A stretch of DNA of 64,000 nucleotides, from contig NZ_CP073355.1 in assembly GCF_023525255.1 (NCBI RefSeq), positions 1,860,001 through 1,924,000 of the forward strand, read 5' to 3'. The notes beneath the pieces were generated by a model that was not told the DNA's origin, ran no database searches, and saw nothing but the letters and a program-made list of their open reading frames with translations. The position numbers and the translations under genes were made by a program. Of the stretch, positions 22,213-26,522 are shown piece by piece; the stretch's first letter is position 1; each line of letters opens with the position of its first letter. The DNA comes from Thermospira aquatica (GTDB taxonomy: Bacteria; Spirochaetota; Brevinematia; Brevinematales; Thermospiraceae).

Positions 22213-22866
22213 TTAAATGTGGTGATGCTTGATAACCCGACCCTCTGTAATATAAACCACCTCTTCTGCGATATTGGTGATGATATCGGCCATCTTTTCA
22301 ATATGGCGTGAAATGCTAAGAAGGATAAGCCAGGGGAGGACATCTCCTTTTCTTTCGTTCATTAATCGGATAATGTCTCCATGAATACTGTCTCTCAGGT
22401 TATTGATGAGTGAATCATTATGAATGACCTGAATTGCTTTTTCCGCGTTTTCTTCGACAAGGGCTTCAAGAGATGTTCTCAGCATTTGGAGCGTAATGTT
22501 TTTCATCTCTTCGTATCTCTCCAGGGGAAAATCCACGGGATGATCACAAATCGCATAGGCGTCCTTGGCGATACTTGTGGCGATATCTCCAATTCGTTCG
22601 AGATCGCTAGTCATCTTGTAGATCATCATGGTGAAACGGAGAACCTTTGCCTCTGGATGAAAAAGCGCAATGAAACTTATACAGGCTTCTTCGAGCTTGT
22701 TTTCCCAGATATCCGCTTGACGTTCATCGTAATCAATAACGGCCTGCGCTGGAGTTTTGTTTTTTTCGATGAAAGCGCTTAAAGCTCTTTCCACCATTTC
22801 TTCAATAAGGGAAGCGTATTTAAGAATATCTGTTTTGAGATCAGCAAACTTTTCTTTGGCTGACAT
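22213..22866 (-). CDS. phoU: PhoU, phosphate transport accessory/regulator
   Basis: 217 residues of two three-helix PhoU repeats. Metal-binding-type signatures DLERIGDIATSIAKDAY (residues about 84-100) and RHIEKMADIITNIAEEVVYI (about 188-207). Last gene of the pst operon, nine bases after pstB; in other bacteria it links PstSCAB activity to the PhoR kinase. No phoB/phoR pair is present in this window. Confidence 0.95.
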   Translation of the reverse strand: MSAKEKFADLKTDILKYASLIEEMVERALSAFIEKNKTPAQAVIDYDERQADIWENKLEEACISFIALFHPEAKVLRFTMMIYKMTSDLERIGDIATSIAKDAYAICDHPVDFPLERYEEMKNITLQMLRTSLEALVEENAEKAIQVIHNDSLINNLRDSIHGDIIRLMNERKGDVLPWLILLSISRHIEKMADIITNIAEEVVYITEGRVIKHHHI

Positions 22867-22875
22867 AGTTTTCTC

Positions 22876-23631
22876 CTATCCAAATTTTCCTGAAAGGTAT
22901 TCTTCTGTACGTTTGTCTGAAGGGATGGTAAAAACCTTTTCTGTTGGTCCGTATTCCACGAGGCTTCCGAGATACATAAAGGCAGTATAATCTGAAATCC
23001 GTCCAGCCTGGGCAATGTTGTGGGTAACAAGGACGATTGTAACCGTATTTTTGAGTTCAGTGATGAGCTCTTCAATATGACTTGTAGACTTTGGATCAAG
23101 GGCAGACGTCGGTTCATCAAGAAGAAGTACCTTTGGCTTCATGGCGAGAGCTCGGGCGATACAAAGTCTTTGTTGTTGTCCACCTGAAAGAAAGGTTCCT
23201 CGTTTGTGGAGCTTATCTTTCACTTCTACCCACAGGGCAGCTTTTTTGAGACTCTCTTCAACAATCTGATTGGCTTCGTCTTTTTTGAGGTGGATGTTGT
23301 TGAGTTTGTAGCCAGCAATCACATTGTCATAGATGCTCATGTTGGGGAAGGGATTGGGACGCTGGAACACCATCCCTGTCATTCGTCTCACTTCCATGGC
23401 AGGGATAGAAAAGATGTTAATTCCGCTCAAGAAAATTTTCCCGTCGACTCTCACCGAAGAATCGAGTTCGTGCATACGGTTTAGACAACGCAAAAGAGTG
23501 GTTTTCCCACAACCTGAGGGACCCATAATGGCATGCACCTGGTTCTCATAAAACTCCAGGGATACCGACATAAGAGCTTGTTGTTCTCCATAGAAAACAT
23601 TGAGATCCTGAACTTGAATCAAAACTTTCAT
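22876..23631 (-). CDS. pstB: PstB, phosphate ABC transporter ATPase
   Basis: 251 residues. Walker A GPSGCGKTT, signature LSGGQQQRLCIARALA, Walker B VLLLDEPTSALD, switch His in LVTHNIAQA, and the PstB-specific LNRMHELD. Start at 23631, where ATG overlaps the pstA stop (ATGA); the frame extends upstream to 23733 but that part is inside pstA. Confidence 0.97.
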   Translation of the reverse strand: MKVLIQVQDLNVFYGEQQALMSVSLEFYENQVHAIMGPSGCGKTTLLRCLNRMHELDSSVRVDGKIFLSGINIFSIPAMEVRRMTGMVFQRPNPFPNMSIYDNVIAGYKLNNIHLKKDEANQIVEESLKKAALWVEVKDKLHKRGTFLSGGQQQRLCIARALAMKPKVLLLDEPTSALDPKSTSHIEELITELKNTVTIVLVTHNIAQAGRISDYTAFMYLGSLVEYGPTEKVFTIPSDKRTEEYLSGKFG

Positions 23632-24464
23632 AGTTTCACCTTCCATCGCTTTATCAAAACGGAACTTATCAGATTTAAAAGAAAAACAGTTGCAGAAAGT
23701 ATAAGAGCAGCAGCCCATGCAATTTTGATCCATTCCTCGACAGGAGAAGAAACATACTTAAAAATAAGAGTAGGAAGGGTTTCCATAGGCCTGAAAATAT
23801 TGATGTGAATGATACGTGTTCCAAAAGCAGTGAACAAGAGTGGAGCTGTCTCTCCCATGATTCTCGATACGCCTACAAGTACCCCTGTGCTAATACCACT
23901 GATAGAACACGGTACGAGAATCTTCAAAATGACCTCATGTTTTGGAGCCCCGAGGGCATAGGCTGCTTCTTTGAGGAGGAGTGGGATAAGTCGTATGTTT
24001 TCTTCGGTGTTTTTTACCACGACAGGGATCATGATAAGAGCCAGAGCGATGCTTCCAGACAAGGCTGAAAACGAACGCAGGGGAACGACAAACCAGATAA
24101 AAGCAAGAATTCCCATCACAATAGACGGAATGCTCTGGATCAGTTCAACAATAACTTTGAGAAAATGGGAAAATTTGTTTTGATACTCAGCGATATAAAT
24201 GCCTGTCATAATTCCAATAGGGGTGGCAATCAGAGCAGCGATTGTTGTAACAATAATTGTACCGAGGATAGCATTGAGGATACCACCGCCGTTTTGGTCC
24301 TTGATGAAAAGAACGGGAGATAAATTTTGGACTCCCTGAACTATTATATAACCTACTATCCATATCAGGGGAATGGCAACCGCAAAGGATAGGACAAGGA
24401 TTATCCCAAAGAAAAGTTTATCTTTTATGATGTTACTTCGAAGATGTGCTTTTGGCGTTGTCAT
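23628..24464 (-). CDS. pstA: PstA, phosphate ABC transporter permease
   Basis: 278 residues, six predicted helices. The ABC permease EAA loop reads EAAYALGAPKHEVILKILVPCSISGISTGVLVGVSRIMGETAPLLF. Overlaps pstB by four bases and follows pstC by three. Confidence 0.96.
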   Translation of the reverse strand: MTTPKAHLRSNIIKDKLFFGIILVLSFAVAIPLIWIVGYIIVQGVQNLSPVLFIKDQNGGGILNAILGTIIVTTIAALIATPIGIMTGIYIAEYQNKFSHFLKVIVELIQSIPSIVMGILAFIWFVVPLRSFSALSGSIALALIMIPVVVKNTEENIRLIPLLLKEAAYALGAPKHEVILKILVPCSISGISTGVLVGVSRIMGETAPLLFTAFGTRIIHINIFRPMETLPTLIFKYVSSPVEEWIKIAWAAALILSATVFLLNLISSVLIKRWKVKL

Positions 24465-24467
24465 AGG

Positions 24468-25403
24468 TTACCTCTCAAAAGACAGATTTTTGATGATCCT
24501 TTGCCCTATGAAGCTAAACACAATGGTAAATAAAAAGAGGATCAAACCGAGTTCTGTAAGCGATTCGGTATGCAGCCCGGTGGATTCAGTAAATTGGTTT
24601 GCAATAACGCTTGCGATGGTGCTTCCCGCAGAAAAAAGAGACGTAGGCATCTGATTGAGGTTTCCTATAACCATCGTCACAGCCATGGTTTCGCCCAAAG
24701 CTCTCCCAAAAGCAAGCATATGGCCAGCGAGAATACCTGAAGAGGCATAGGGTATAATCACCTTCTGGATCATCTTGTAACGGGGACTACCTAGAGAGAT
24801 AGCTGCTTCTTTAAGATCTTGAGGAACAAGCTGGATAACTTCGTAAGCCAAAGAGGTAGAATAGGGAATAATCATAATAGCTACCACAAGAGATGCTGTC
24901 AATACACCCACTCCCATTGGTATGACTCCAAAAGAAACCAAGGAGAGCTGCCACTTCTGCATGAGTGGGACGAGTACCAAAAGTCCCCACATCCCATAAA
25001 TAACCGAGGGAATGCCTGCGAGGAGTCTTACGACAGCTTTCAAAAGGGTGGATAATCTTCCCGTGGGACGATATTCACCCAGAAAGATAGAAAGCGAAAG
25101 GGAAAAAGGAAGAGAGATAAGAAGAGCTAGGACAGATGTTAAAAATGTTCCTGTGATAAATGGCAGCCCCCCAAAAGAGGCATTGTCCGGATCCCAGTTT
25201 GTACCAATAAAGATTTGCCACCCATTGTGTTTGATGGCAGAAAGAGAGAATATAAAAAGACTGAATAGTGTTGCCAGAATAAAAAGGGCAACAAATCCCA
25301 CCGAAAACCAGAGAAAAAATGAAAATAAGCCCCCAGAGAAGGCCTTGGCCTTCTCTGGGTTTTTTGTTTCTTTCTGAGAAGTGTTAGCGAACTTTCTTGC
25401 CAT
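24468..25403 (-). CDS. pstC: PstC, phosphate ABC transporter permease
   Basis: 311 residues with an N-terminal cytoplasmic extension and six helices. EAA loop EAAISLGSPRYKMIQKVIIPYASSGILAGHMLAFGRALGETMAVTMVIGN. The ATG lies 20 bases inside the end of pstS. A perfect 13-bp hairpin covers codons about 15-24. Confidence 0.96.
   Translation of the reverse strand: MARKFANTSQKETKNPEKAKAFSGGLFSFFLWFSVGFVALFILATLFSLFIFSLSAIKHNGWQIFIGTNWDPDNASFGGLPFITGTFLTSVLALLISLPFSLSLSIFLGEYRPTGRLSTLLKAVVRLLAGIPSVIYGMWGLLVLVPLMQKWQLSLVSFGVIPMGVGVLTASLVVAIMIIPYSTSLAYEVIQLVPQDLKEAAISLGSPRYKMIQKVIIPYASSGILAGHMLAFGRALGETMAVTMVIGNLNQMPTSLFSAGSTIASVIANQFTESTGLHTESLTELGLILFLFTIVFSFIGQRIIKNLSFER
25332..25359 (-). promoter_or_regulatory. 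Perfect 13-bp hairpin at the pstS/pstC junction
   Basis: Arms CCCAGAGAAGGCC and GGCCTTCTCTGGG separated by two bases, inside the first codons of pstC. On the pst mRNA it could protect the pstS transcript end or reduce pstC expression. On the opposite strand it is followed by GTTTTTTG, so it also looks like a terminator for plus-strand transcription. Confidence 0.6.
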
Positions 25404-26391
25404 TAAATACCACCGAATTTAAAAGATTTTCTGATACTTTCACTGCCTGGGAAGAAATTGGACCATAATCTACGGTAGGGTGAATCTTTTGACCATCGTG
25501 TACCATCCACCAGATGGTTTCGACGATAGCTTTTGCTCTGTTTTTATCCTTGAGGTAAGAAAGATCTTTGTACAACAGGATCCATGTGGTTGCAGCGATA
25601 GGATATGCCTCTTTTGCTGGAGAGTTCACCACATCGGCGATACCATCAGCAGGAACATTAACGATGGCTGCTGCAAGAGATTTGGGATTAGCAGCATCAA
25701 TGAATTTCCCTGCACTGTTTTTTAAAAGAGCGTATGCTAAAGCATTTTGCTTTGCATAAGCGAACTCCACATAACCAATGCTTCCGGGAACCTGTTTTAC
25801 ATAAGCTCCTACACCGGCATTCCCTTTTCCTCCGATACCCACAGGCCACTTTGGAGCCTTACTGGTACCTACAGCTTTTTTCCAATCTTTACTTACCTTG
25901 GTGAGGTAGAGAGTGAAATTGTACGTTGTACCAGAAGAGTCAGAACGATACACAACGACAATGTTGAGATTTGGGAGATCAACACCGGGGTTCAACGTAG
26001 CAATGGCGGGATCGTTCCACTTGGTGATTTGACCAAGATAGATCTTGGCAACAGTATCACCATCCAGTTTTAGTTTCAGATTACCAGGGAGGTTGTACGC
26101 CATTACAATAGCACCGAGAGCCATTGGGATGTGGAGGACATCATCCTTTGCCTGAGCCTTTTCGTCATCATTGAGGGGAGCGTCAGAACCAGCAAAATCC
26201 ACTGTTCGTGCAATGAGCTGCTTGATACCGCTACCAGAACCAATAGCCTGATAGTTTACGCGATGGGTCTGATACTGCTTGAACATCGCAGCATACAGGG
26301 GCTCAGGGAAAGTAGCACCTGCCGCATTCAAATCAACACCGAAAACCTGAGAGGCGAGAACGATCATCGCCAGAAGATATGTTTTTCGCAT
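25384..26391 (-). CDS. pstS: PstS, periplasmic phosphate-binding protein
   Basis: 335 residues. Signal peptide MRKTYLLAMIVLASQVFG with no lipobox Cys, so soluble periplasmic. Mature start AAGATFPEPLYAAMFKQY; phosphate-binding loops GSGSGIKQL and YRSDSSGTTYNFTLYLT. AAGGAGG precedes the ATG. First gene of the operon, transcribed from a Pho-box promoter. Confidence 0.95.
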   Translation of the reverse strand: MRKTYLLAMIVLASQVFGVDLNAAGATFPEPLYAAMFKQYQTHRVNYQAIGSGSGIKQLIARTVDFAGSDAPLNDDEKAQAKDDVLHIPMALGAIVMAYNLPGNLKLKLDGDTVAKIYLGQITKWNDPAIATLNPGVDLPNLNIVVVYRSDSSGTTYNFTLYLTKVSKDWKKAVGTSKAPKWPVGIGGKGNAGVGAYVKQVPGSIGYVEFAYAKQNALAYALLKNSAGKFIDAANPKSLAAAIVNVPADGIADVVNSPAKEAYPIAATTWILLYKDLSYLKDKNRAKAIVETIWWMVHDGQKIHPTVDYGPISSQAVKVSENLLNSVVFNGKKVR

Positions 26392-26409
26392 AGAAAAACC
26401 TCCTTTAAT

Positions 26410-26438
26410 AGATTAAAATATTTTTTGCTTTCTGTCAA
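26410..26438 (-). promoter_or_regulatory. Second, Pho-box-independent promoter of pstS
   Basis: On the minus strand TTGACA (26433-26438), 17-bp spacer, TAATCT (26410-26415). Sits between the Pho-box promoter and the pstS ribosome site and could give basal expression. Confidence 0.55.
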
Positions 26439-26467: not shown

Positions 26468-26522
26468 ATTATAAGGGTGGGTTTATGAACATCAGATGAA
26501 AAGAAAATGAATTTATAATGAA
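26468..26522 (-). promoter_or_regulatory. Pho box and -10 of pstSCAB-phoU
   Basis: Reading the minus strand, TTCAT occurs four times with exact 11-bp phasing (plus-strand ATGAA at 26485, 26496, 26507 and 26518). Eleven bases after the last repeat is TATAAT (26468-26473), with no good -35 box. This is the layout of a promoter activated by a PhoB/PhoP-type response regulator binding tandem repeats on one DNA face. Confidence 0.8.

Follow-up and report, generated by a model that had tools for sequence, protein, structure and literature searches.

In Escherichia coli, the Pho box replaces the -35 element and lies about 10 nt from the -10 element; Arg201 of PhoB, the second arginine of the recognition helix, reads the G of TGTCA. 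The Bacillus subtilis PhoP consensus is TT(A/C/T)A(C/T)A, present as four repeats with a period of 11 bp. More generally, a PHO box consists of direct repeats of 11 nt to which the regulator binds head to tail, and the half-site varies between species, for example CTGTCAT in E. coli and GTTCACC in Streptomyces coelicolor (PMC4415409). The cre/blr tag of CreB and BlrA reads TTCACN6TTCAC (PMC4689548). Literature searches found no paper combining "Pho box" and "spirochete" and, for PhoB, spirochaetes and phosphate starvation, no spirochaete Pho box paper by title; in the available portion of PMC12236494, the terms "phosphate", "PhoB", "PhoR" and "pst" do not occur.

The window, that is, the whole 64,000-nt stretch of Thermospira aquatica DNA analysed here, carries four exact TTCAT repeats on its minus strand (26518-26522, 26507-26511, 26496-26500 and 26485-26489) with a period of 11 bp. 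Together they form a putative Pho box (26485..26522). Eleven nucleotides separate the last TTCAT from a TATAAT that would serve as the -10 element of a box-dependent promoter (26468..26473, minus strand). No usable -35 element accompanies it: among the hexamers 16-18 bp away, the best agrees with TTGACA in three of six positions. Downstream of the box and before the pstS start at 26391 sits a second, ordinary sigma70-type promoter, with TTGACA (26433..26438) and TAATCT (26410..26415) across a 17-bp spacer, followed by the Shine-Dalgarno sequence of pstS, AAAGGAGG (26399..26406), all on the minus strand. A sister genome of the same genus (G011) retains TTGACA-17-TAATTT and the four half-site positions, while much of the surrounding sequence has changed. 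The first-pass annotation had proposed a Pho box of four TTCAT half-sites at 11-bp steps, 11 bases before TATAAT and upstream of pstS, a promoter without a -35 and a separate ordinary promoter downstream; the sequence bears out this arrangement, with the coordinates confirmed on the minus strand.

The operon downstream of these promoters is complete in the order pstS-pstC-pstA-pstB-phoU, and its five genes, all on the minus strand, exceed their NCBIfam cut-offs: the phosphate-binding protein gene pstS (25384..26391; TIGR00975, 347 bits), pstC (24468..25403; TIGR02138), pstA (23628..24464; TIGR00974), pstB (22876..23733; TIGR00972) and phoU (22213..22866; TIGR02135). The pstB match begins at residue 39, and the true start may therefore lie further in. 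Three features expected of a Pho box are found: tandem direct repeats of an 11-nt unit, a position upstream of phosphate-acquisition genes (pstSCAB-phoU here, alkaline phosphatase in the sister genomes G011 and G012) and a box that stands where a -35 would be, with a set spacing to the -10. The element is very probably a Pho box through which a phosphorylated regulator of the PhoB/PhoP type (OmpR family) would activate pst at low phosphate; binding by the regulator, activation by that binding and phosphate as the signal are all predictions from sequence.

Like the E. coli PhoB box, the box of this genus consists of 11-nt direct repeats upstream of pstS. It differs in its half-site, TTCA(T/C) rather than TGTCA, and its four-repeat register is present in all 12 boxes identified in the genus, although in three of them a single repeat departs from TTCAY. 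The S. coelicolor PhoP box shares the core TTCAC and the 11-nt unit, whereas the genus box has AT-rich spacers, four repeats and an almost constant spacing to the -10, and belongs to a different phylum. Both the TTCATA of the genus and the TTAAY found in sister families fit the B. subtilis consensus; unlike that consensus, which admits A, C or T at the third position, the genus has C there in 47 of 48 repeats. TTCAY is therefore close to half-sites already described; the first-pass annotation had set TTCAT apart from those of both E. coli and B. subtilis. The cre/blr tag is similar in half-site and 11-bp period, but has two half-sites rather than four, and its system includes a CreD target that was not found in the genus.

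The phased repeats might instead be a chance product of AT-rich intergenic DNA, and the intergenic region is AT-rich. Within the window, however, the four-repeat pattern at up to three mismatches has an expectation of 0.03 (100 dinucleotide shuffles, none with two or more matches) against two overlapping matches found, one of them exact. Across the 2.515-Mb genome, the same threshold yields four matches, namely the exact pstS site, a shifted register of it, and sites at 1272251 (one mismatch to TTCAT x4) and 480389 (three mismatches), against one match for the reversed control pattern. When the search is relaxed to TTCA x4 at up to two mismatches, this genome has six matches against five for the reversed control, a result in favour of chance; loose matches are therefore noise. 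Exact TTCAY x4 sites, by contrast, occur twice in T. aquatica (G000), three times in G011 and four times in G012, and never in the corresponding controls. Orthologous genes of all three species also carry the sites, and the spacing to the -10 hardly varies. Given the window expectation, the whole-genome scan and the control counts, a chance repeat was rejected as having a negligible probability. Further phased copies at phosphate genes, for which the first-pass annotation had proposed a genome scan, do occur within the genus.

The same architecture, with the -10 in the same place, is found in 12 boxes across G000, G011 and G012. Their targets are pstS (two boxes), a gene for a PHP-like/GT4 fusion protein (three), the gene of a CBS-SpoIIE phosphatase with clpB after it (three), alkaline phosphatase (PF00245, two), a gene of the LMW-phosphatase family (one) and a putative outer-membrane protein (one). 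In T. aquatica, the 1272251 site immediately precedes the fusion gene and has 11 nt to TATAAT. The 480389 site, the third and most divergent box of this genome, stands 48 nt before the gene for a CBS-SpoIIE phosphatase of 417 aa; its TATAAT is 10 nt away, and clpB is the next gene. At one mismatch or less to TTCA x4, leaving out shifted registers and two-mismatch sites, there are four distinct sites in G011 and five in G012. Those of G011 precede pstS, the fusion gene, the CBS-SpoIIE gene with clpB, and alkaline phosphatase; those of G012 precede the fusion gene, the CBS-SpoIIE gene with clpB, alkaline phosphatase, the LMW-phosphatase-family gene and the putative outer-membrane protein, which reaches 39.8 bits with the TDE2508-family model (cut-off 125). 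The G012 assembly is 98% complete and has five boxes, and a search for PstS gave no match at E 0.001; either this species takes up phosphate by a different transporter, perhaps, or the assembly may lack the pstS locus. The position of clpB after the CBS-SpoIIE gene downstream of a box is kept in the three species (L075:2386-6341), and a Pho-linked clpB, if true, would be unusual. Separately, G011 has a one-mismatch TTMAY x4 array (C55:64934; L136:1501-1538) without a clear -10 or a nearby ORF, which is unexplained or due to chance.

In other families of the Brevinematales, and independently of any box, several of these genes are found side by side. In G009, a fusion gene of 45% identity stands between a CBS-SpoIIE gene and a porin-like gene, with pstS and pstC next in the row. 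The order in G006-G008 is response regulator, histidine kinase, CBS-SpoIIE, pstS, porin-like gene, pstC and pstA; pstB was also identified in G006 and G008, and in G007 an additional CBS-SpoIIE gene precedes pstC. G010 has a response regulator, a PnpS/PhoR-like kinase, a porin-like gene and pstS. Genes that are linked by boxes at scattered loci in the genus are therefore neighbours of pst elsewhere. The porin-like label rests on a Porin_O_P match under the cut-off in G008, BLAST similarity among the G008, G009 and G010 genes, and position; Pfam returned nothing for the gene of G006.

Boxes of the same geometry, mostly TTAAC/TTAAT, precede pstS and pstC in G006-G008 (all six regions), as well as one CBS-SpoIIE gene of G007 and the regulator gene of G010. 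Among 19 upstream regions examined in these families, eight had a box score reached by none of 300 mononucleotide shuffles, the region of the G010 porin-like gene was marginal (p 0.033), and ten, including three from G009, had no box. When the shuffles were first-order and the score included a -10 term, none of 500 reached the value of the pstS region in G000, G011, G006, G007 or G008; the corresponding fractions were 0.76 to 0.97 for G001-G004 and 0.29 for the second pstS of G010; the G009 pstS and the first G010 pstS were outside this test, and the G009 result is that of the mononucleotide shuffles. A TTAAY-type site at the fusion gene of G010 is marginal (p 0.02). The -10 follows the last half-site by exactly 10 nt in 18 of 21 boxes (12 from the genus and nine from other families, the marginal one counted; the G011 C55:64934 array, two-mismatch sites not already counted and the ten boxless regions left out). 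In two it follows by 11 nt, both in T. aquatica and one of them the box of the window, and one case is ambiguous (10 or 15).

Boxes and a PhoB-like response regulator occur together in G000, G011, G006, G007, G008 and G010. G001-G003, where a regulator search at 1e-25 gave no match, have no box at the genes tested; nor does G009, where the only match at this threshold groups with a second type of regulator (see below). The regulator search covered neither G004 nor G005. The locus of G009 (L175:5394-10424) keeps CBS-SpoIIE, fusion, porin-like gene and pstS in a row, yet has neither a box at the genes tested nor a canonical PhoB-like regulator at 1e-25.

Two OmpR-type response regulators are encoded in the T. 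aquatica genome. The first (908289-908987) scores 202 bits with the PhoB model (NCBIfam cut-off 296) and 201 with CreB. A kinase at about 1050.7 kb has PnpS/PhoR as its best family (PnpS 244.5, cut-off 400; PhoR 219, cut-off 334), two of the six HisKA matches of this genome having been run through NCBIfam. Regulator (908 kb) and kinase (1051 kb) lie far from each other and from pst. Outside the genus, the top-scoring relatives of the regulator (45-47% identity) are the proteins whose genes lie a short way before pst in G006-G008. The box is probably read by this orphan PhoB-like protein at 908 kb.

The recognition helix of E. coli PhoB is RTVDVHIRRLR, against RTIDAHIKNLR in the T. aquatica regulator; G011 and G012 have RTIDVHIKHLR, G006-G008 RTIDVHIRHLR, G010 RTIDVHINNLR and CreB RTVDTHIKTLR. 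Like CreB, the regulators of the genus lack the second of the arginines in the E. coli helix, and this goes with the loss of the G of TGTCA. It is also missing from G006-G008 and G010; its loss therefore does not explain TTAAY versus TTCAY. The second OmpR-type regulator (1805463; L007:1489-2217) has a partial receiver match (residues 41-114) and the helix RVVDTNIVNIR, and its relatives in G006, G008 and G009 share the helix start RV(I/V)DTN. This protein possibly works without phosphorylation.

The nearly equal PhoB and CreB scores and the missing arginine would also suit a different reading of the box, as a CreB-type tag for a CreB-like regulator that responds to carbon or envelope signals rather than phosphate. 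The half-sites of the window are all TTCAT and other sites of the genus mix TTCAC and TTCAT; such repeats with six-base spacers resemble the published tag, and their 11-bp period fits TTCACN6TTCAC (PMC4689548). In trees, however, CreB and its spirochaete relatives form a clade (100/99) that leaves the regulators of the genus outside, although joining the latter to CreB by force is not rejected (p-AU 0.43); nor is joining them to the pst-linked regulators and their nearest relatives (p-AU 0.32).

A scan of 392 genomes of the spirochaete phylum, drawn evenly from a larger group, bears on the same question. Exact TTCAY x4 was found in 12 genomes at 23 sites, nine of them in this genus, while matches to the control pattern came from a single genome (20 in G124, presumably a repeat). 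None of the 14 sites outside the genus adjoins a pst or phosphatase gene (ORFs within about 1.5 kb by eye, nine via Pfam). These sites precede creD (three), exosortase genes (three, one just under the Pfam cut-off), sugar-transferase operons (three) and TolC-like genes (two), and the remaining three fall within or next to ORFs and have no evident promoter. The second TolC-like gene and the third sugar transferase were identified by eye. The arrays before creD, exosortase and sugar-transferase operons belong to G221, G098, G083, G200 and G149 (L115, L122, L109, L116, L121, L117, L125, L126 and L114). The sites at creD are likely CreB tags. Taken together, these arrays suggest a CreB-type regulon in other spirochaete families that includes exosortase and polysaccharide genes.

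For the box of the window, this precedent in other families favours a CreB tag, whereas the targets in the genus are pst, alkaline phosphatase and genes that cluster with pst elsewhere. Moreover, CreD (PF06123) was not found in any of the three genus genomes or in five of five other Brevinematales, in a search that was positive in E. coli, G098, G149, G200 and G221. A CreB tag is accordingly disfavoured as the function of this element and is considered very unlikely; a Pho box remains the preferred reading. The first-pass annotation had also supposed that TTCAT might define a spirochaete variant. As a Pho half-site, TTCA(C/T) was seen only in this genus, with TTAAY in other Brevinematales families, and a spirochaete-wide TTCAY code was rejected on the small number of genomes with exact sites and on the neighbours of those outside the genus.

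Two of the box-linked proteins deserve description. The fusion protein of T. aquatica has 787 aa from its probable start, and its C-terminal half is a GT4 glycosyltransferase. Its N-terminal part matched no solved structure and is labelled PHP-like because of an HxH start motif, seen by eye, and weak profile matches: PF02811 (PHP) reaches E 0.018 only, in the G009 fusion, and is unreported for G000, and PHP_C falls under the cut-off in both. The best NCBIfam match of the fusion protein is GlcNAc-phosphatidylglycerol synthase (104.6 bits, cut-off 480), and a lipid role for the GT4 half is a guess. The gene is present in 5 of 12 genomes searched, with none in G006-G008; among named genomes, a method that finds close relatives returned only Brevinematales bacterium SKW221 and Ch60 MAGs. 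In the CBS-SpoIIE family, the CBS part is under the Pfam cut-off in the G009 protein and in the second G007 protein.

If the window element is a Pho box, regulator monomers would bind head to tail on the four direct half-sites; as these recur once in each 11-bp helical turn, all would lie on the same face of the DNA. The last half-site would stand in for the -35 and hold the sigma factor of RNA polymerase over TATAAT, which is 10-11 nt away. Phosphate would probably be sensed via PstSCAB-PhoU and passed to a PhoR-like kinase, and the separate TTGACA promoter would supply basal pst transcription. Under starvation, the PHP-like phosphoesterase domain of the fusion protein may strip head groups from phospholipids and the GT4 domain add sugar instead, while the CBS-SpoIIE phosphatase, of the PP2C type, may pass the starvation state on to other regulators. 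The combined proposal is tentative and may well not hold as a whole: a scattered Pho regulon with a phosphate-sparing module (lipid-remodelling fusion plus CBS-SpoIIE relay), together with a half-site change between TTAAY and TTCAY within one order that converges on the CreB tag where CreD was not found.

The element of the window is itself ordinary, and its added value lies in the regulon that it exposes and in the difference of half-site within one order. It offers a concrete and checkable Pho regulon for an order of spirochaetes, in which box and gene neighbourhood point to the PHP-like/GT4 fusion and the CBS-SpoIIE phosphatase as candidate members of a less familiar kind. Because promoter geometry is kept in this order while the half-site is either TTAAY or TTCAY, the Brevinematales provide a natural test of how the recognition helix of the PhoB family reads DNA.
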